A stretch of 64,000 nucleotides of DNA from positions 52,722 to 116,721 of the forward strand of contig JANDJZ010000094.1 of the NCBI GenBank assembly GCA_027943245.1, in the 5' to 3' direction. Source of the DNA: Acanthamoeba sp. SK_2022b (lineage: Eukaryota; Discosea; Longamoebia; Acanthamoebidae). A program made the translations under genes and the position numbers. This document shows, piece by piece, positions 2,243 to 62,711 of the stretch (its first letter is position 1; each line of letters starts with the position of its first letter). Below the pieces are notes generated by a model. That model made no database searches and was not told the DNA's origin. It was given only the letters and a program-made list of their open reading frames with translations.

Positions 2243-5200
2243 ATGTCAAAAGTGGATCGTAATCAGAAAGCTAAAGAGCACCACAACAACAATAAGCCCA
2301 GGCTGCCCACCACTACCACAGCCTACGGCGAAAGCGAAAAGGGGAGCAAGCTACAGAACAAGAAGAAGTCAACCAAACCTGCTGCCTCGCCCAGTGGCGA
2401 AAGTGAGAGCGTAGATGAGAACATGCTAGAGGATGGTACAGCGCTGATTATAACCACGGCGTCCAGGTCTTTTGCTGACCGCCCCACCCCACACAGAGGG
2501 TTCCATTCCCGACTTCGTGACTAACACCAGTGAAGACATTACTCCCCGCATCCCCGACTCGTCATACGACCCCTTACCCTCCATACCTGACATAGAAGGT
2601 ACTACCCCCAGCTAGCCAGTAGGAGGAATCCACTCAAAGACATGACTGGCAAGCAGATGACGATCCAGAAGATGATATGGGCGACCCGCTTGATTCTGCA
2701 CGAGATCGCGAGAGAGAAGAGAAACGACAAAGAGAGAAGGAGAAGGAGCGAGAGAAGGAGAGCAAGGCTGAGAAGGAGAGAAGGAACAACAGCAGGAAGA
2801 AGACACAGCCCAAGAGCGCTGAGGACAGGGAGCGGCAGAGCGTTAAGTCGCCGCGCGCCAGTGGGGAGGTGAAGACGCCCAAGTCAGGTCGACGGGATAA
2901 GTCCAACGGAGCCGACGAGAAGGAGACGAGAAAGGTGAACGGAGGCGACAAGCGAAAGAAGGGCAGCTTCTTCCAGCGCAAGCCTGACAATACGTCGCGC
3001 AAGCTAAGTGCCAGCCAAACCCAGAGCCTCAGACCTGGCGGAGGAGGCGGAGAAGACACGCTAGATACAGACGACGGCCGCCGAAATACAATCGCCGGCT
3101 ACAAGCCTGACGACAAGCGAGGCCGAGACAGCGACGCTGATGTCGGGCGAGGTTTGCAAAGGAGATACGCGCTACAGGACATCTTCGTACGTCTCGCCGT
3201 CCCTTCTGTGACATGCCTGCACAGGCGACCGACGGTGCGTTGGTGAACCGCCGCAGGATTATCACGTTTTGTCCGTGGAGGCACTGCTGGCGCGATTCCG
3301 CACCAACATCGACAACGGACTCTCAACCATGGACGCCGATAAGAAGATGAACAAGAATGGACCCAACCACCCGACCGTGAGGTGCCCAGCTGTCGACGTT
3401 GATGAGTACGAACGCTATCGGCCTCCCTCTGCCGCTCCTGTCGCTCTCTTGATGACCACACGTCGCCCCAACATAGGCTTGCGACGAAGAAGGTGGTGGT
3501 CAGACGCGACGGTTACCGAAAGGCAATCGAGTCGCGGGAACTGGTCGTCGGGTAAGCCTTCCACAACCTCTCACCCCATCCCTAGGTGGCAGGCAACTTA
3601 CCCCACCATGAAGAGACGTGGTTACCCTCGAGCCAGGCCCTGTGTTTGCCGATATGCGTGTGGTGGGTGTCAATACCACGGACATGCTCGTCGACAACTC
3701 CGCCATCACCGGCGACCCTGAGCCCTTGCCGCGCCAGGTAGAGCTGTCCCCCCCCCCTCTAGGCGAGCTTGACCAACCAATGCCGTTGTAGGTGGACATG
3801 ACGACAGAGAACTACCTGACGAGCGAGAACCTTTTGTTCTATGGCACCAACATCGTCGATGGCGAGGGAACGGGAGTTGTTGTCCGTACAGGTACGCTTG
3901 CAATTCGTGCAGCAAGGAGTTAAAACTTGGACTTTATTGGTATTTCCTCCGACAGGAGATGGAACGCTTCTGGCACGCATGATCAAGGACAACGAGAGCG
4001 CCAAGCTGAGGAAAGAGGGCGGGCCCAAGGCCAAGAAGGCCATCATGAAACAGCTCGCCAAGAACGGGCTGGCCTTCAAAGAGCCCAATGCCGGTACGCC
4101 GTATCTCTCACCCAGTGAGATGCATTGGGAAGGAGTTTACTCACCATTAACACTCCAGCGAGCCGCTTGGGACGAGTGACCACCCTAGTGGTGGACTCAA
4201 TGGGAGTGCTCACGGAAAACAAGAGTTCGGTGAGCTTTATCATGATCGACAAAGAGATCCGAGAGGCCACGGCGCCCCTGCCCGAGGGCGAGCCCACCTT
4301 CAACGCGCTTCTGAGGGCGTGCGTGCTCGGATGCAACGCCTACTTCCAGGTATCCGAGGGCGTCAATAAGAACAAGCTCAACGTCGACCAGCTCGATGTA
4401 GAGGAATGGGACAACACCAGGTATCACATGGCACCACGCACCACACAGCTATCATGCAGCGCTGTTGACACTTGATGGGTCTCTGGCAGCGGCGCGCTTC
4501 TGCGGTTTTACGAGAAGAACCCAACCTTGGGCATGAAGCGACGAGAGGACGCCTTCTGCAGCGAGATCGTACGAACCATGCTCCTACCAGGCACCGCCTA
4601 CTTATGCGTGTACATAACACAGATGCGGGCCGCATGGGAGAAAGTGGCCGACGACTTGAATGACTGCCGCGTTAGCATCCATCGATGGGCGAAAGGCCCG
4701 CATGTGGGCGGGGAAGACGAGGTACGTACCTGGTTTCAGGATGTGCCCTTCCACGCCTACGTCTAATGTCTTTCCATTTGTCGATTCAGACGAAAGCGGG
4801 CTTCCTGGTGGTGTTGAGCGGTCCGCTGGAGGTGGTTCTCCAGCACTGTCACACTCACATGATGCTAGGTCAGAGCAAGAAGTTGGACAACGCCAGCAAG
4901 AGGGAGATCCGGGAGAAGGCCATGGTGCTTCAAGGTAGGACCAACCCTAATCTCTCTGTCAGGGTCTCTTACCGACAACATCTGGCGTCCCAGGCTATGG
5001 TGAGATCGTGCAGGCGTTCGCACAGTTGCCACTTCCCAGCAGCGATTACCCACATGATTTTGAGTTTGACTTCTACTCGCCCAACTTCCCCATGGTGCGC
5101 CTCCACCCTTGATTCGCTATCGCTTGTTCTCTACTACACCGGCATGCCCGCTCAATGCGGTGGTTCCCCCCCCCCAATATCTTCCCTACAACAGAAGGAG

Positions 5201-6076
5201 CTGTGCTTCCTCGGTTTAGTGTCGATGGGCTCGCGCTTCTACAAGACCATCCCCTCTGCCATCGAGCGCTGCAAGCTCGCCAACATTCGAGTCATCATGG
5301 TCTCACAGGTACAGCGTCCTCTTGGTCACTGGACCACGATCTCCTGACGCGTCAGGGAATCCTGATCCCGGCACGCCATACAGGACCCTGCACTGGCTGT
5401 GACGGTCATGGCACGGAAGATCGGGCTCATCACCAAGGAGACTCCTGAAGATATTGCCAAGAAGGAGGGGGTGATGGTCGACGAGCTAAGCGAGGAGAAG
5501 CTGGGGCAGGCCAAGGCCATTGTTATCGACGGCAGCCAGATGGCGCTCATGATGGAGGAGGGCCTGTCCCACATCATGAGAACCCACGACGAGGTTGTCA
5601 TCTCAGGGTATGACTGCCTTACCAACCTCCGCCTTCTTTTAACACTCATTCCACGTGCGCTCGGTTTTCAAGAGTGGACGCGAGCCAGAAGCTGAAGATC
5701 GTAAGAGCCGCCCAGATGATTCAACAGGCCGAGGTAGGCTCCTTTATGCGTATGAAGTGTCACCCCCCCCCCCATCGCGACTCAACCCGCCGAGCGCTTC
5801 CGTGCGTGCAGGTGGTGGTGGCCACTGGCTCGCAACTGGCTGACTGCGCGGGGCTTTCGGTGGCCGATGTCGGCATTGCCGCGCCGGTACTCCCACCCCT
5901 ATTTTTTGAGGGGGGTCGCTTGTTCTCACTCACACGCGCATGTCGAATAGGGAAGCGTGGAGGGAGTGCAACAAGCTGCTGATGCAGTCATGACGGGCGG
6001 GGCGTTGGATTCGATCCTCGACGCGGTCGAGTTCGTGAGGAGGAAGAGCGAGGGCGGAGGCTGTATTCTACAGTGA
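2243..6076 (+). CDS. Soluble P-type ATPase-like pseudoenzyme (class IIC cytosolic domains, no membrane segments)
   Basis: Eighteen exons: 2243-2435, 2497-2598, 2657-3186, 3257-3405, 3477-3551, 3614-3737, 3792-3891, 3956-4093, 4159-4420, 4490-4568, 4623-4721, 4790-4934, 4994-5094, 5195-5308, 5384-5607, 5673-5733, 5812-5886, 5951-6076. Predicted 898 aa. Residues 1-275 are a charged, Lys/Arg/Glu-rich, probably disordered or coiled extension. From residue 276 the order of a Na/K-type pump follows: N-terminal HVLSVEALLARF and NGPN; A domain (RRDG, ELVVGDVV, VDNSAITGDPEP); N and P domains up to DASQKLKIV and the final helix. TM1-2, TM3-4 and TM5-10 are all missing: short hydrophilic joins replace the first two, and a stop follows the P domain. 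Signatures are altered: TGES to TGDP (382-385), DKTGTLT to DSMGVLT (D483 kept), KGAPE to SGPLE (627-631), TGDH to SQDP, and TGDGVNDSP to TGSQLADCA (837-845). A cytosolic, non-pumping regulatory or scaffolding role is inferred. No loss of frame is seen, so it looks expressed rather than decayed. Confidence 0.85.
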
Positions 6077-8070: not shown

Positions 8071-8988
8071 ATGGCGGAACCGCACCACAACCCCATGTTT
8101 AGGCCTCCCTTCAACCCTTCGGCGGTCCTCGCCCCTCCCGCGCACCCCACGCTCTCCGAGAATGAGCCCATCGATCAGTTCATCCAGAGCGGTGCGGAAG
8201 GCTCGAGCTACTACCCTGGCTTCACGACCCCATCTGAGCATGACTACTTCTCTCTGTTCGCCGAGTTCGCGATGGACTTGACGCCGCCCCCCAGCATGAA
8301 GAGGTAGCCAATTTCTTTCGTGGTGGCCTCGTTTGCCATTCTCTCCCCCTTCTAATTTCGCAACTAATGCGTACGTATTTACAGTAACCAGCAGCCTCCC
8401 CCCGTGCTGGGCAAGACTGGCCTTGCGCCCACCTACTCCACCACTGCCGTTCCTCCCGATGCCCTCAACGCCACCCGCAAGAGGAAGAAGGATGGTGTTT
8501 CTTCGAATGGCACGGGCACCGCCCCTACCACGAAGAAGGCCACTCAGGCCGCTGCCGCCGCCGCGAAGAAGACCAAGAAGCAGCAGGACCTAGGTCTCTC
8601 GGATGAGGATGACGAGCTTGATGGAGGTGCTGGCGATGGGACCCTACCCGAGCGTGAGAGGCGCCTTCTCAAGAACCGTAAGGCCGCCCAGCAGTTCAGG
8701 AAGCGCCAAAAGAACCACATCCTCGAGCTTGAGGCCCGTGTGGAGACGCTCTCGACCGAGAACTCGACCCTCACCTCGCAGGTGGATCTCCTCCATGCCG
8801 AGAATAAGCTCATTCGCGAGCAATTGGACTACATGCGCAGCTTCGTTCTCAACGCGCTCCAGTTCACCTTCCCCCCGAACATGGCCGGCGGCATGGCGAT
8901 GCACGATCTGCAGAAGAGCATGATGCCTCCTTCTGCCCTCTCGCGCAGCGCGGAATCTAGCAACGACAAGGAATCGAGCCGACCATAG
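8071..8988 (+). CDS. bZIP transcription factor
   Basis: Two exons, 8071-8303 and 8385-8988, giving 278 aa. The N-terminal 80 residues are Pro/Ser-rich and acidic (a likely activation region). A Lys-rich, Ala-rich stretch (RKRKKDG; KKATQAAAAAAKKTKKQQ) may hold a nuclear localisation signal, followed by an acidic patch LSDEDDELDGG. The bZIP domain follows: basic region RRLLKNRKAAQQFRKRQK has the N-x7-R signature, and the zipper ILELEARVETLSTENSTLTS continues into heptads VDLLHAENKLIREQL. The protein should bind DNA as a dimer in the nucleus. The tail is Met/Ser-rich. A TATA box lies 130 bp upstream. I cannot name an ortholog. Confidence 0.9.
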
Positions 8989-16654: not shown

Positions 16655-18871
16655 ATGAAGACGGCCGTGCCCTCATCGCGTCTCACGACGAGCCAGATGG
16701 CCATGGTCGTGGTCATCATTCTTTCCATGGGCTCTCTGTTCTACTTCACCTTGAATTCCTCACCACGCACTCAGAGCGATGAGGCGCGATGGAAGGATCT
16801 GACAGATAGACTGGACGACACCATCATGGCGCAAGAGCGAATCGATTCGATTTTGCTTCGATTAGCCGAGACTGTGGGAGCTGATGTGGCCAATTTTACG
16901 CGCGGTAAGGAGAGTCAAGGAGCGGAACCCGACGCAACGTACCAGCACAACGCATACAAGCGGTGGCTGGCTCGCCTCGGCACAACGCCCACCGAGCAGA
17001 TGTGTGAGGACCGCACAGGCCTCACCCAGGTACGGTCGCCAACAGAAGGCCGGCGGCCGTTACCGAGCTAAAGGAATTTTTATTTTTGCATTTATTTTTT
17101 ATTTTTTGAAAATGTTATTATTTTACTGCAATATCTCGTATATTATTTCAGGATTCAGGTTTTTAATAATTTAAATAATCTTATAAATATTTTAATTTGG
17201 CAGGTGCAACGGTTCCGCGAGTCGAAGAAGGACTGGTGCAAGAACGCAGGCGGCGCTGGCCGAGTGGCGTGCTACCAGCTGCCAGGCTACGGCAGCCGCT
17301 CCGACAAACCGCAGACCATCTGCGAGGGCTTCAATCTGGTGCTCACATCGAAACTCTCCTCATCCTGCGCCCTCCACAACTGCTCTGGCCGCCACCTCAC
17401 CACCTCTATCATCGTGCTCGTGTCCCCACCTGTGCTTGCCTCAGGTGGTGGACTTTGGGAAGATCCCTTGGAACCCGCCCTCCGATTTCGACAACTCTGG
17501 ACAAAACAAGCATCCCCACTTTGGCCGAGGTTCGCCGCTCGGCCGCCCATGCGCGCGTGCTCCGCGATGCGTGAGCGACTGACCGCCCATGATGTGCGAA
17601 TGGATCGGGGCGGGGTGTGGGGGGGGGGCACAGGCGCGTTCTCCGCGCAGTGCGAGGTTGATCGGTCGGTGGTGAGGGACATCGACAGCATGATGGGATC
17701 AGAGAACAAGTTCAGCCGCGCCCTGTGGAACAACTTCGAGGAGATCCCCGCTGGCCAGCCCACCGAGTGCGACGTCGTCTACGAGGTACGGTCGCCCGCA
17801 GCGCACACGAGGGGCCTGTCGGACTGCCCCCAGGCTAACACGAACGCGCGTGTGCCAAAGAATCCGGTGGTGGTCATCATGCGCTTCGAAGCGTGGAATC
17901 TGTATCACCAACTCGGGGAGTGGATCAACGCCTTCACGACGCTCGAGGTGCGATGGGAAAGGGGAGCTTCCCTTGTTGCGGTACCGCACCGCCATCTGAT
18001 CGCCATTCGCGTGTGCGCGTGACAGGTTGTCGACAAGCTGGACCGGGACACGCAAGTGCTGCTCCTGGACATGCACGAAAAGACCGAGCCCTTCACCGAT
18101 ATGCTCAAGGTCTTCTCGCCCGACCATCCCCTTGTCTTGGGCAATGAGGTACTACCACCACCCCTACCCCGCCTTGACAGCAATTATTTTTTATCGGATA
18201 TTTCGATTTATATTTATATGTCATTAAAACAAATTAAATGGTTAAATGAATAAAAATTGCGGTAGCAGCTGACTTTATGCACGGTCTGCAGCTCGCCGGC
18301 AAAGGCAAGGTTTGCTTCAAGGACGCGATCATGCCGTGGGAAGGTAAGCCGACGACAGGCGCATCGCGTCGCCATCGATCGAGCGCAGCTGCTCGTCTCG
18401 AGTGATGTGAGCCCACGCACTCATGCTCGCCCATGCGCCCAGGTTATGGCACCTTCATCCACAACAACGTATGGCGGGCCTCGCATGGCGAGCCCTGTTT
18501 CCACAGCGACATCCTGGAGGGCTTCTCTCACTTTGTCCTGAACAAACTGGGGTACCTGCCTGTGCACGCAACATACCCGCACACACACGCACGCACACGC
18601 ACGCACACACACGACACACACACGGCGCTCATCATTCCGGTCGTTTGCGTGATCGCGTGCACAGCATGCTCGGCAGGGAGATCCCCAACGAGCCGCGGAT
18701 AACTCTGATCTCGCGAAAGGATTACATGGGCCGCAGCATCAGCCGAAAGATCTCGAACGAGGATCAGGTCGTGGAGGCCCTCCAGGAGGTGTCCAGAGGA
18801 CGAGGTGCGCGTGGTGCCCGTCACTTGTTGTTAGCTGAACGACACGTTCGCACGTTCTCATGCGCGCGAGT

Positions 18872-28569: not shown

Positions 28570-30010
28570 AGCACAAGGGGCCAACTTGAACATGTTGCAA
28601 AAGGGTCAAATTTTAATAAAAACAAAGAAGGCTGTATCTTCAAATGCAGTTAAACATCATGGGCAGAGTCCTCAGACAGGCTTGTCTTTGGTGATCTGCC
28701 ATGGTCAAGGGTGGCAATGGCGGTGGTACAGCGAGTACCAGGTCCATGCACCTACCTCTGTTGTTTTAACGCAGCATTTGACCACACACACTGGAACGCA
28801 ATCAAGCATGGACTACCTCAAAGGCTTGATTGATCATGTCATCCAACATGAACATCAAGATAACAACATTTTGGCACTCTCACCAGTCACTTACTGCAAC
28901 ACTGACTTTGCTGGCAACATCAACACCTGCAGATCGATCAGTACATATGTCTTCCTCTTTGCTGGAGGACCTGTCTTGTTCGTTTCATACACCTATTCAT
29001 GCACACACAGCGTTGCTGAGATCCAGCTCTGCTGACAGGAACGCCAATGACTGCACAATCAAAGCCAGAGAGAGCCTACAGTCAACCAAGGTGGCCCTTG
29101 AGATGACTGACCTGGGCGCTGCTACATCTGTACTCAGCATCAAAATCCTACATGACAATGGCTCTGTTGCTCTATGTCAAACTGGCCACATGCTAACACG
29201 TTACTGCATGACCAATTGCAAACCACAACACACCCCCATGACTGCTGGTCTCTTGCTTGTTAAACTGATGACTACCAGTCATGAATGTTCATCCCTGCCG
29301 TACTGCCAAGCCATTGGTAGCCTTATGTACCTGTCACAGGCCACTTGCCCAGATATTGCTTTTGTGGTGGCCTACCTTAGCAAGTTTGTTAATGGTTATG
29401 ATGAAACACACTGGGTCGCTGCCAAGCATGTCATGTGTTACCTAAATGCTACTCACTTGCTCTCCATTGTCTACAGCTGGTTGGCTATCCATGATGTGTG
29501 CCTACTCAGCCCTATGGTGTAGCCCTGCAACACTGACTGGGGCGGCAATCTTATTGACCGTTGCTCTGTCACCAGCTACATACTCATTCTGTGGTTGTTC
29601 TGTGGAAACTGTCAAACATGTACTGTATGTCCATAAGCTACTTTGTCCTCTTGGTCTTAATGCCGCACTCCCATCAAGAGTGACAACCAGAGCACTACAC
29701 TGCTAACCCAAACCAATCAACAAGCATATCACCCAAGGACAAAACATATTGACATCAAGGTGGCCCACCTATGAGAGGTCGTGGCCACCAATACAATTGT
29801 ATTGACGTACTGCCCAACTGGGCAGATAATTGCAGACATGCTTACTAAAGCACTGCACAGACCAAAACTTAACAAGTTGAAAGGCTTATTTCTCTATATA
29901 CCAGCGAAAAGCTTGTGGGAAATGGGGTCCTTTATTAACTCGCAACAAACTGCATTGCTCTTGCTGCATGGAGCAACTTCAGTTGTGCTGCTCACTAAAT
30001 AAAGGCCCCC
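28570..30010 (+). mobile_element. Ty1/Copia-like retrotransposon remnant (RT end, RNase H)
   Basis: Seen on the plus strand: an RNase H-like fragment near 28.90 kb (NTDFAGNINTCRSISTYVF); the RT C-terminal/connection region at 29.29-29.48 kb (LPYCQAIGSLMYLSQATCPD, then IAFVVAYLSKFV, and HWVAAKHVMCYLNAT); a second RNase H start near 29.53 kb (NTDWGGNLIDRCSVTSY); and the polyprotein end near 29.75-29.90 kb (HIDIKVAHL, then VLTYCPTGQIIADMLTKALH). Stops and frameshifts separate the blocks. Having two RNase H starts means either nested insertion or a local duplication. A purine-rich tract (GTGGGAAATGGGG) near 29.92 kb may be the polypurine tract. No LTR was identified. Confidence 0.65.
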
Positions 30011-32275: not shown

Positions 32276-35048
32276 TTATTCCTTGCCCATTTGGGTGTTG
32301 AAGGAGGCAGCTATCGTGATCGACACATCCACCACCTTCTTGATCCTGCCGATGTCCACCTGGATCGAGTCTGCGACAAAAACAAATAAAAAACAATAAA
32401 CAATAGCATCAGAGCAAGAACATACGTGTGGCGTGCTCATGAGGCAAGGGTTGCGCTTACCGGGAACGTAGACGGGGATGTAGATGTGATTGGATTGCTT
32501 GGCCAGGTTGCGGAAATAGGTGAAGCTTCTGATGCTCTCGGGCAACAGCTCGATCAGAATGGCCTGGGTGGTAGGATCACATCATCAATGGAATACATCC
32601 TTTTATAAAAGGAATAACATCAATCAGGAGTACCTCTGGCGGTAGGAAAATTGTGTGGGAGAGGCCAGCGCCGTGAACGCCGATGAGAATGTTGGTCTTG
32701 GTGTACATCAGCTCGACCTGCTCCTTGAAGGTCATAGTCTCCAACCGCACGCTCGTGAACGATGCTGCGCCCCATTCACACGACACGCCACCCCAACACA
32801 CACACGAGAGAGAGAGAGAAAACCTCGCGCGCATGAGAACGTGCGAACGTGGGTCGTTCGGCGAACAACAAGTGACCTGCACCACGCGCACCTCGTCCTC
32901 TGGACACCTCCTGGAGGGCCTCCACGACCTGATTCTCGTTCGAGATCTTTCGGCTGATGCTGCGGCCCATGTAATCCTTTCGCAAGATAAGAGTTATCCG
33001 CGGCTCGTTGGGGATCTCCCTGCCGAGCATGCTGTGCCGCGATCACGCAAACGACCGGTATGATAAGCGCCGTGTGTGTGTCGTGTGTGTGTCGTGTGTG
33101 TGTCGTGTGTGTGTCGTGTGTGTGTGTGTGGTGTCGTGTGTGTCGTGCGCAGGCAGGTACCCCAGTTTGTCCAGGACAAAGCGGGAGAAGCCCTCCAGGA
33201 TATCGCTGTGGAAACAGGGCTCGCCGTGCGAGGCCCGCCATACGTTGTTGTGGATGAAGGTGCCATAACCTGGGCGCATGGGCGAGCATGAGTGCGTGGG
33301 CTCACATCACTCGAGACGAGCAGCTGCGCTCGATCGATGGCGACGCGATGCGCCTGTCGTCGGCTTACCTTCCCACGGCATGATCGCGTCCTTGAAGCAA
33401 ACCTTGCCTTTGCCGGCGAGCTGCAGACCGTGCATGAAGTCAGCTGCTACCACAATTTTTTTTTACGTTCATAAATTGTGTGAGAAATAAATATAAAAAA
33501 AACCAAGATATATAATATACAACACCATCACAGGCGGCCCGATGGGCCTACCCAAATCTGGGAAGGGGTCCCCTCTGGTGATGGTGGTGTGGTGGTGTGG
33601 TGGTGTGGTGTGACGTCGGAGGAAAAAGAATTGCTGTCAAACCGGGGTAGTACCTCATTGCCCAAGACAAGGGGATGGTCGGGCGAGAAGACCTTGAGAA
33701 TATCGGTGAAGGGCTCGGTTTTTTCGTGCATGTCCAGGAGCAGCACTTGCGTGTCCCGGTCCAGCTTGTCGACAACCTGTCACGCGCACACGCGAATGGC
33801 GATCAGATGGCGGTGCGGTACCGCAACAAGGGAAGCTCCCCTTTCCCACAGCACCTCGAGCGTCGTGAAGGCGTTGATCCACTCCCCGAGTTGGTGATAC
33901 AGATTCCACGCTTCGAAGCGCATGATGACCACCACCGGATTCTTTGCGCAGCAGCGGTGGGCAGACGCGCGTTCGTGTTAGCCTGGGGGCAGTCCGACAG
34001 GCCCCTCCTGTGAGCTGCGGGCGACCGTACCTCGTAGACGACGTCGCACTCGGTGGGCTGGCCAGCGGGGATCTCCTCGAAGTTGTTCCAGAGTGCGCGG
34101 CTGAACTTCGATCCCATCATGCGGTCGATGTCCCTCACCACCGACCGATCGACCTCGCACTGCGCGGAGAACGCGCCTGTGCTCCCCCACACCCCGCCGT
34201 AATCCATTTGCACAACATGGGCGGTCAGTTGCTCGCGCGTCACGCAATGGGGAGCGCGCGCACACACACGCACGGGCGGCCGAGAGGCCAACCTCGGCCA
34301 AAGTGGGGATGCTTGTTTTGTCCAGAGTTGTCGAAATCGGAGGGCGGGTTCCAAGGGATCTTCCCAAAGTCCACCACCTGAGGCAAGCACAGGTGGGGAC
34401 ACGAGCACGATGATAGAGGTGGTGAGGTGGCGGCCAGAGCAGTTGTGGAGGGCGCAGGATGAGGAGAGTTTCGATGTGAGCACCAGATTGAAGCCCTCGC
34501 AGATGGTCTGCGGTTTGTCGGAGCGGCTGCCGTAGCCTGGCAGCTGGTAGCACGTCACTCGGCCACGGCCGCCTGCGTTCTTGCACCAGTCCTTCTTCGA
34601 CTCGCGGAACCGTTGCACCTGCCAAATTTATATGTTTAAACATCGGTAACGCGCCTTCTGTTGGCCACCGTACCTGGGTGAAGCCTGTGCGGTCTTCGCA
34701 CATCTGCTCGGTGGGCGTTGTGCCGAGGCGAGCCAGCCACCGCTTGTATGCGTTGTGCTGGTACGTTGCGTCGGGGTCCACTCCTTGACTCTCCTTAGCG
34801 CGGGTAAAATTGGCCACATCAGCTCCCACAGTCTTGGCAAATCGAAGCAAAATCGAACCGATTCGCTCTTGCGCCGTGATGGTGTCGTTCAGTCTATCTG
34901 TCAGATCCTTCCATCGCGCCTCATCGCTCTGAGTGCGTGGTGAGGAATTCAAGGTGAAGTAGAACAGGGAGGCCATGGAAAGAATGATGACCACGACCAT
35001 GGCCATCTGGCTCGTCGTGAGACGCGATGAGGGAACGGCCGTCTTCAT
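32276..35048 (-). CDS. GT61-type (DUF563) glycosyltransferase, copy B (inverted paralogue)
   Basis: Twelve minus-strand exons with the same structure as copy A: 34674-35048, 34484-34618, 34293-34377, 34031-34176, 33855-33941, 33662-33776, 33369-33446, 33161-33269, 32892-33031, 32634-32764, 32461-32563, 32276-32370; 532 aa. All frames and splice sites are intact, including the GC donor of intron 6. It differs from copy A by about twenty substitutions and a two-residue deletion (GSENK to GSK). The N-terminal anchor and the VHGAGLSHTIFL hallmark are conserved. Introns differ more: intron 6 carries unrelated sequence with a (GGTGTGGT)-type run near 33585-33610 on the plus strand, and intron 8 has an expanded GTGTGTC repeat. 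Substitutions without frame damage suggest that both copies are under selection. Confidence 0.85.
33069..33150. repeat. GTGTGTGTC-type microsatellite in intron 8 of GT61 copy B
   Basis: A run of TGTGTGTGTCG units, longer and more regular than the CA/CG-rich stretch at the same intron position in copy A (about 18572-18630). It shows repeat expansion or contraction since the duplication. Confidence 0.8.
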
Positions 35049-61982: not shown

Positions 61983-62603
61983 TCAGTAGAGGCAACAGCG
62001 CTGCGGGTTACGAGCCTCTTCGTTGGCTGTGGCGTTCCGACGGATCTCGCGTACGGCGGCAAAGAAGCACTCCTCCACGTTCACGTAGGCCTTGGCCGAT
62101 GTTTCGATGAACACGCCACTGCTCCTCGGTAACGAGTGGGCCAGAGTGGCGCCTTCGGCCACGGAAACCTCGCGCTGTGGCTCCAGGTCGCACTTGTTGC
62201 CCACCACCACCATGGTCAAGTGGTCGTCGCCCTTAATCCGTCGGATGAGGTCGTAGTGATCCATCACCTCGTTGAAAGACTCGCGCGAGGTAATGTCATA
62301 GACGCACAAGAAGCCCTGGGCCATGCGGAAGGGCCGATCTCTCCTAAAACTATAGAAAGGATAGATGGTCAGTTGCCACACCCCAGTGCTCGAACTCCTC
62401 ACGGACCTGTACTCCTCCTGGTCCAGGGCTGCGGTGTCGAGTATGGTGAGCAGGCAAGGCTCACCATCGATGCACATATTCTTGCGGTAGGAGTCCTCCC
62501 ATGATGGGTCGTACTCCTCCAGGAAATGGTTCGATACGAAGCGAACGGTGAGGGCGGACTTGCCCACTCCTGGCCGGCCCACAACAACTAGCTGGTACTC
62601 CAT
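61983..62603 (-). CDS. Atypical Ras-family small GTPase
   Basis: Two exons, 62407-62603 and 61983-62349, giving 187 aa. Seen: P-loop GRPGVGKSALT (G1), effector-like YDPSWEDSYRKN (G2), switch II LDTAALDQEEYS (G3), GNKCDLE (G4), ETSAKA (G5) and a C-terminal CCLY (CaaX-type). Nucleotide-binding residues of G4/G5 are normal, so it should bind GTP/GDP and be lipid-anchored. Oddities: Pro at the position of Ras Gly12 (residue 11 here), no glycine directly after DTA in switch II with two extra residues before QEEY, and Ser-Trp in place of Thr35-Ile36. These changes predict altered GTP hydrolysis and effector choice. The ATG at 62603 was chosen because it begins the conserved MEYQLVVVG; an in-frame GTG farther upstream is unlikely to be used. 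Confidence 0.88.
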   Translation of the reverse strand: MEYQLVVVGRPGVGKSALTVRFVSNHFLEEYDPSWEDSYRKNMCIDGEPCLLTILDTAALDQEEYRSVRSSSTGVWQLTIYPFYSFRRDRPFRMAQGFLCVYDITSRESFNEVMDHYDLIRRIKGDDHLTMVVVGNKCDLEPQREVSVAEGATLAHSLPRSSGVFIETSAKAYVNVEECFFAAVREIRRNATANEEARNPQRCCLY

Positions 62604-62711
62604 CGCGCTGGCGAAGTGGCGCCCGGGCACGTTTATACGGTCGATGTCTAAAAATAAAGTGCAGCTGATTGGAGAGTGTTTGCCGACTCTCCCCTGGTTG
62701 GGTGCCGCCAG

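Follow-up and report, generated by a model that had tools for sequence, protein, structure and literature searches.

A split gene for a pump head

The DNA analysed here is a stretch of 64,000 nucleotides (nt) from Acanthamoeba sp. SK_2022b (hereafter the window), which belongs to contig C1074 in an assembly of 44.9 Mb and 1129 contigs. At positions 2243-6076 of its forward strand it holds the gene for a protein that we call the pseudo-pump head, which resembles the cytoplasmic part of an Na,K- or H,K-type (P2C) pump and ends in a candidate prenylation (CaaX) box. The model rebuilt from the sequence has 18 exons, 17 GT-AG introns and a product of 891 amino acids (aa). An earlier description of the window, made from its letters alone (the sequence-only reading), had placed an 18-exon gene in frame here; that structure is borne out, while the product, given there as 898 aa, is shorter in the rebuilt model. 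The exons are as follows.

2243-2435, 2497-2598, 2654-3186, 3257-3381, 3477-3551, 3614-3737 (+): exons 1-6, rebuilt gene model
3792-3891, 3956-4093, 4159-4420, 4490-4568, 4623-4721, 4790-4934 (+): exons 7-12, rebuilt gene model
4994-5094, 5195-5308, 5384-5607, 5673-5733, 5812-5886, 5951-6076 (+): exons 13-18, rebuilt gene model

The introns measure 54-100 nt, their length is not a multiple of three in 12 of 17, and reading through them meets a stop in nine. For intron 2 a choice of acceptor exists, at 2653 or 2656 (3 nt apart), and either keeps the frame. Together with these intron lengths, the GC content at codon positions 1, 2 and 3 (0.59, 0.41 and 0.73) fits a real gene. For Acanthamoeba castellanii, PMC4053784 reports an average of 6.2 introns per gene. 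Of five profilin-domain matches in the assembly, one (L074) departs from the PDB chain of profilin IA (1prq) at about 5 of 125 positions and is also close to profilin I (1acf), both of them A. castellanii proteins, which makes an Acanthamoeba the most likely source. No second copy was found in the assembly among 14 scored candidates, the only other DNA matches being two stretches of about 50-80 bases within the low-complexity N-terminal extension; as far as these searches reach, the gene is single copy.

Relatives were sought in three protein searches, each scoring about 8000 candidates and together spanning lengths of roughly 255-1560 aa, a range that would miss shorter annotated fragments. 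The first (490-1560 aa) gave 171 matches; among the 120 listed there was no close relative, the best-scoring match sharing 30% identity over 67% of the query and those with higher identities (up to 46%) covering about one-sixth of it. The second gave nine matches, two of them close and both metagenomic: P0121 (467 aa, JGI contig of 1945 bases, 56% identity over 98% of a 464-aa query), which carries the JGI name sodium/potassium-transporting ATPase subunit alpha, and P0122 (280 aa, JGI contig of 4203 bases, 62% identity over 27% of the query). A third, profile-based search returned 34 matches, headed by these two, with P0129 next at 27%. Among viral and genome contigs, 186 and 197 stretches, respectively, carried two short peptide patterns each and none was confirmed as a relative, in a search of low sensitivity; plasmids gave no match to one 61-aa piece.

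The two close relatives back 12 of the 17 introns. P0121 spans introns 8-17 with no insert at any junction, and because ten intron positions are thus crossed without an intron it probably derives from a transcript. P0122 carries inserts of 17-18 residues at the sites of introns 6, 7 and 8; these are probably translated introns, and their positions suggest that P0122 is genomic and has the same gene structure. Introns 1-5 are supported by the window sequence alone.

The head is retained and the membrane domain is missing

The protein encoded by the gene is laid out as follows.

2243-3186 (+): charged N-terminal extension, aa 1-275 (61 K/R, 58 D/E), exons 1-3; low-complexity, no Pfam match
3257-3381 (+): pump N-terminus (DYHVLSVEALL...NGPN), exon 4, with the A domain directly in the next exon and transmembrane helices TM1-TM2 gone; PF00690 at aa 278-315 and alignment
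3477-4020 (+): A (actuator) domain, exons 5-8; PF00122 match at aa 319-439
3997-4089 (+): basic join replacing TM3-TM4, aa 432-462, net charge +7; alignment
4215-5094 (+): N (nucleotide-binding) domain, limits approximate, adenine-pocket residues lost; alignment and fold of P0121
5195-6052 (+): second part of the P domain (HAD core), ending at the stump of stalk helix 5, limits approximate; alignment and fold of P0121
6062-6076 (+): C-terminal CaaX box, Cys-Ile-Leu-Gln and stop (CLLS in P0121); gene model and relative

From residue 276 on, Pfam and alignment both show the protein tracking Na,K/H,K-ATPases. Two Pfam families score over their cut-offs, E1-E2_ATPase (9e-19) and Cation_ATPase_N (1.5e-4); no N- or P-domain family was matched at E up to 1, and these two domains were recognised by alignment. 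Among PDB sequences, H,K-ATPase alpha 2 matches best (1.7e-66), and identity to P2C pumps is about 30%. A structure was predicted for the N-P part of P0121, with the A domain outside the model, and it has the intact fold of a pump head. The A domain by Pfam, and the N and P domains by the PDB match and this model, thus have the sequence and fold of a P2C pump, in the A, N, P order and behind the charged 275-residue extension that the sequence-only reading had described. The extension also holds an ER/K-rich run (DREREEKRQREKEKEREKESKAEKERR, window 2704-2784, forward strand), which might form a single stable helix.

The membrane helices of a P2C pump, with their ion-binding sites, are absent from the window protein. 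No membrane helix was found anywhere in its 891 aa, the highest 19-residue Kyte-Doolittle mean being 1.19: TM1-2 is reduced to a few residues, TM3-4 to the basic join, and the chain ends at the stump of stalk helix 5. Hidden exons for the missing helices were considered and rejected: exons 4 and 5 lie 95 nt apart, exons 8 and 9 are separated by 65 nt, and 343 nt run from the stop to ATG 6420, where the next gene begins (assigned by eye), so that neither the missing hairpins nor TM5-10 would fit. Because the genomic gaps are too small, membrane loss is independent of exact splicing, and the sequence-only reading's replaced hairpins and end before TM5 stand on both hydropathy and lack of room. 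The TM1-2 join rests on the window alone, because introns 1-5 do.

P0121 and P0122 also lack the TM3-4 hairpin, and the motif GPKAKKxxMKxLAKxG in the join is common to all three sequences. Net charge here, at a site that in a pump faces the membrane as well, is +7 in the window protein (aa 432-462) and +10 in P0121 (residues 1-37). A strong amphipathic membrane helix at the join was considered and is unsupported: its helical moment is 0.43-0.46 in the three proteins, against a core median of 0.24 and a 95th percentile of 0.49, and the same stretch in a working pump reaches 0.50. Charge alone is claimed for it.

A CaaX box stands where TM5 would begin

The tails read VRRKSEGGGCILQ-stop in the window protein and VRKKSEGGGCLLS-stop in P0121, the one relative whose end is known. 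The last ten residues are KSEGGGCILQ and KSEGGGCLLS, so that a CaaX box (CILQ, CLLS) is kept in both, at the expected start of TM5. Gln or Ser in the X position favours farnesyl. A donor-like GTGAGT at 6073 overlaps the stop and offered an alternative ending; it is countered by the KSEGGGC-a-a-X-stop that the gene has in common with P0121. The assembly holds prenyltransferase-beta-family loci (C945, C909), a family missing from 14 prokaryote controls, and ICMT-family loci (C386, C697, C92), some of which may be bacterial, the family being present in five of the 14 controls.

The sequence-only reading had called the protein soluble. A soluble protein whose CaaX-like tail is incidental would find room in the chance level of such endings, which occur in 3 of the 611 open frames of at least 60 aa in the window (about 0.5%; the last exon of the gene itself is too short to count). 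However, both ends fit the box, their differences after the identical KSEGGGC being conservative, they lie at the site of membrane-domain loss, and prenyltransferase-family loci are present in the assembly. We regard an incidental tail as improbable, and the conserved box predicts that the pseudo-pump head is probably lipid-tethered rather than soluble. Elsewhere in the window, a Ras-like GTPase frame (61983-62630, reverse strand) ends in RCCLY, itself a possible CaaX ending (by eye).

Catalytic motifs are selectively altered

Motifs were compared in sponge-pump numbering against a reference set of 13 pumps, some of which are nearly the same in sequence. Three altered motifs stand out.

3708-3719 (+): former TGES, now TGDP (SGDP in P0122); alignment
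4194-4214 (+): former DKTGTLT, now DSMGVLT (DAAGIIT in P0121, DSLGVIT in P0122), Asp kept; alignment
5824-5847 (+): former TGDGVNDA, now TGSQLADC (TGGQVGDC in P0121); alignment

An active pump would carry DKTGT, TGES, the adenine-pocket residues and GDGVND, and none of these is intact. DKTGT has become DSMGV, DAAGI or DSLGV in the three proteins, with Asp and Gly alone kept, and TGES has become TGDP or SGDP. In the window protein and P0121, respectively, TGDGVNDAPAL reads TGSQLADCAGL and TGGQVGDCAAL; GDASESALL reads WDNTSGALL and WDGTSGALL (SES becoming TSG); PFNSTNK is a gap plus DLND or DVND; KGAPE is SGPLE or SGPTE; GERVLGF is GEIVQAF or GDTVLAF; DPPR is SRFY or SRYF; and TGDHP is SQDPA or SQDLP. 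Most ATP-pocket residues, those for adenine among them, and one Mg-binding acid are lost with these changes.

What stays is a defined subset. From DKTGTLT both proteins retain the Asp, the Gly and the final Thr, from TGD and QKL the Asp and the Lys, respectively, and from GDGVND the second Asp; in pump numbering D379, D622, K701 and D724 persist and T620 has become Ser, while the Mg-binding D720 has given way to Ser or Gly and neither K380 nor T381 survives. The sequence-only reading held that all catalytic signatures were changed, which is right for the motif strings and overstated for the residues, since a subset used in HAD phosphoryl transfer survives. On the alignment, catalytic loss is selective: it has taken residues of the adenine pocket and an Mg-binding Asp, and has spared the Asp that accepts the phosphate, the Lys of the HAD core and one acid.

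These retained residues raise the strongest rival, strongest because four key ones persist: that the protein performs HAD-type phosphoryl chemistry without ATP, as a lipid-anchored phosphatase or phosphoryl sensor using D476, S729, D731, K811 and D836. The Thr/Ser of HAD motif II, the Lys of motif III and an acid of motif IV are indeed present (S729, K811, D836). But the other motif IV acid, D720 in the pump, is lost along with K380 and T381, and the residue two past the nucleophile, typically Asp in HAD phosphatases (the DxD of motif I), is Met, Ala or Leu (D476-S-M, D-A-A, D-S-L). The retained residues may instead be structural, and on these grounds residual phosphoryl chemistry appears unlikely.

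Positions invariant among pumps, counted where the alignment covers them, are kept in the window protein at 18 of 45 sites within motifs versus 42 of 67 outside (Fisher p 0.021), and in P0121 at 15 of 42 versus 24 of 41 (Fisher p 0.049). The two proteins agree with each other more often in former-motif columns (45/67) than elsewhere (212/395; p 0.046). Invariants lost in both number 41, one of which (E963) is a misaligned tail column, and the replacement is the same in 26. Under a looser rule that takes a 70% majority among pumps, both proteins depart from it in 68 of 142 columns and share the new residue in 41 of those; in columns variable among pumps the two are identical in 159 of 320. The pattern suggests a site that has been remade and is constrained, although the p-values are marginal and the columns are related by descent.

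Descent from a P2C pump

A maximum-likelihood tree was built by a quick method from 62 rows, namely the window protein, P0121 and 60 matches of at least 800 aa, with P0122 left out. The window protein and P0121 form a pair with support 100 that nests inside the P2C pumps, next to a group of four including sponge and beetle sequences; the surrounding forks have support of 84-99 and the nearest-neighbour fork 85. This nesting points to descent from a P2C (Na,K/H,K-type) pump, in a tree with a long stem, in which P0121 fills 43% of columns and uneven letter composition is flagged in 27 rows. The stem of the pair measures 2.02 changes per column, and its tips, at 0.43 and 0.37, are close to the median tip of 0.36. 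These branch lengths mark a burst of change, after which constraint was of the usual strength.

A decaying pseudogene, or an artefact of gene model or assembly made from a normal pump, would explain why most motif strings are broken. It is already contradicted by a frame kept over 18 exons with no space for TM exons, by the corresponding losses in relatives that share 56% and 62% identity, and by tip branches of ordinary length, and we give it almost no weight. The sequence-only reading had argued for repurposing rather than decay, and the homologues now found, with matching altered motifs, support this well.

Other pumps in the assembly

No canonical P2C pump came up in two six-frame searches of the assembly, which may be incomplete; each search used a single pump sequence and scored 45 of 52 or 46 of 48 candidates, respectively. 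As a control, the same searches recovered intron-split genes of PMCA and H+-ATPase type. Motifs were inspected in 10 fetched regions and five further loci, a set outside which C318, C488, C180, C869, C153 and others fall. By motif, the pumps comprise an SPCA type (C592), PMCA types (C493, C1000, C601), H+-ATPase types (C494, C1007, C239), another P2-like pump (C479), bacterial-type Mg pumps (C322, C677) and heavy-metal types.

These results bear on whether the protein is a regulatory decoy, its head competing with an active P-type pump for partners or binding the pump itself. The better keeping of pump invariants outside the motifs of the window protein than inside them would suit such a role, and the SPCA-, PMCA-, H+- and P2-like pumps offer possible targets; the obvious target, however, a P2C pump, seems to be missing from this assembly. 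That absence need not extend to the whole phylum: a survey of Na,K-ATPase alpha (PMC9609216) counts Amoebozoa among its owners, which speaks against phylum-wide loss. In the review PMC7600311, in silico analysis leads to the proposal of an ATP4-like Na-ATPase for such amoebae. We consider a decoy role rather unlikely.

The two bacterial-type Mg-transporting genes (loci L030 and L031, on C322 and C677) are intronless, and the assembly probably includes bacterial contigs. C311:76328-76867 and C312:78643-79182 give the same heavy-metal-type match with identical scores, as duplicated contigs or near-identical strains would. Within the window, all judged by eye, a gene for a bZIP-like transcription factor, with RRLLKNRKAAQQFRKRQ ahead of its leucine heptads, lies downstream at 8071-8988 (+); an open frame at 28830-29522 (+) resembles a fragment of a copia-type retrotransposon polyprotein; and the open frames at 17204-18022 (+) and 33803-34618 (-), about 16 kb apart, contain a near-identical stretch that looks like an inverted duplication.

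Discussion

Our preferred explanation, which we hold to be probable with real room for error, is a single-copy pseudo-ATPase derived from a P2C pump, a cytoplasmic head without membrane domain acting as a prenylated, membrane-peripheral scaffold. The tail cysteine would be farnesylated, putting a lipid in place of TM5 at the stalk helix 5 stump, and the basic join at the TM4 stump would help to hold the head on the inner membrane face. An ATP-independent head with a charged 275-residue arm could then serve as a scaffold or docking platform, presumably without catalysis of its own. Weighing against this are the persistence of D379, D622, K701 and D724, with T620 as Ser, in both the window protein and P0121, the intact fold of the P0121 model, and the fact that two C-termini are known in all. 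A broader history, in which a lineage of amoebae lost its working Na,K-type pump, kept the head, exchanged the membrane domain for a prenyl anchor and rebuilt the former ATP site as a conserved binding site of a new kind, leaving a membrane-tethered pseudo-pump that signals or scaffolds and moves no ions, is put forward tentatively, as something we would sooner doubt than assume.

P-type ATPases are defined by a cytoplasmic head coupled to an ion-moving membrane domain. If the preferred explanation is true, a conserved and apparently lipid-anchored head without that domain shows that the head alone can serve a non-transport function. Because pumping is impossible here, the protein bears on the question of Na,K-ATPase as a signalling scaffold apart from pumping; it amounts to a natural deletion experiment and is directly testable.

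No named family for a membrane-free pump head was found in Pfam, in the protein searches or in open-licence literature including the review PMC10654040 (long title lists being covered in part), in agreement with the sequence-only reading. A conserved, CaaX-tailed head of this kind is new as far as could be seen.

Comparison with known systems

Pseudoenzymes and degenerate P-type ATPases are already known. TMEM94-like pseudo-P-type ATPases are degenerate too but, unlike the pseudo-pump head, keep their membrane helices. CaaX-tailed signalling proteins such as Ras share the Cys-aliphatic-aliphatic-X box with nearby basic residues, and carry a GTPase domain instead of a pump head as cargo. The P2C pumps themselves (Na,K- and H,K-ATPase alpha) share the A, N, P order, about 30% of the sequence, the predicted fold of P0121 and stretches such as SPNFPMKELCFLGLVSM; the pseudo-pump head differs from them in having no TM helices or ion sites, a changed set of motifs and adenine pocket, a CaaX end and the 275-aa extension. 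The apicomplexan P4-ATPase domain fused to guanylate cyclase (PMC6592433) is likewise a P-type ATPase module reused in a protist, but it is neither a stand-alone head nor lipid-tailed.
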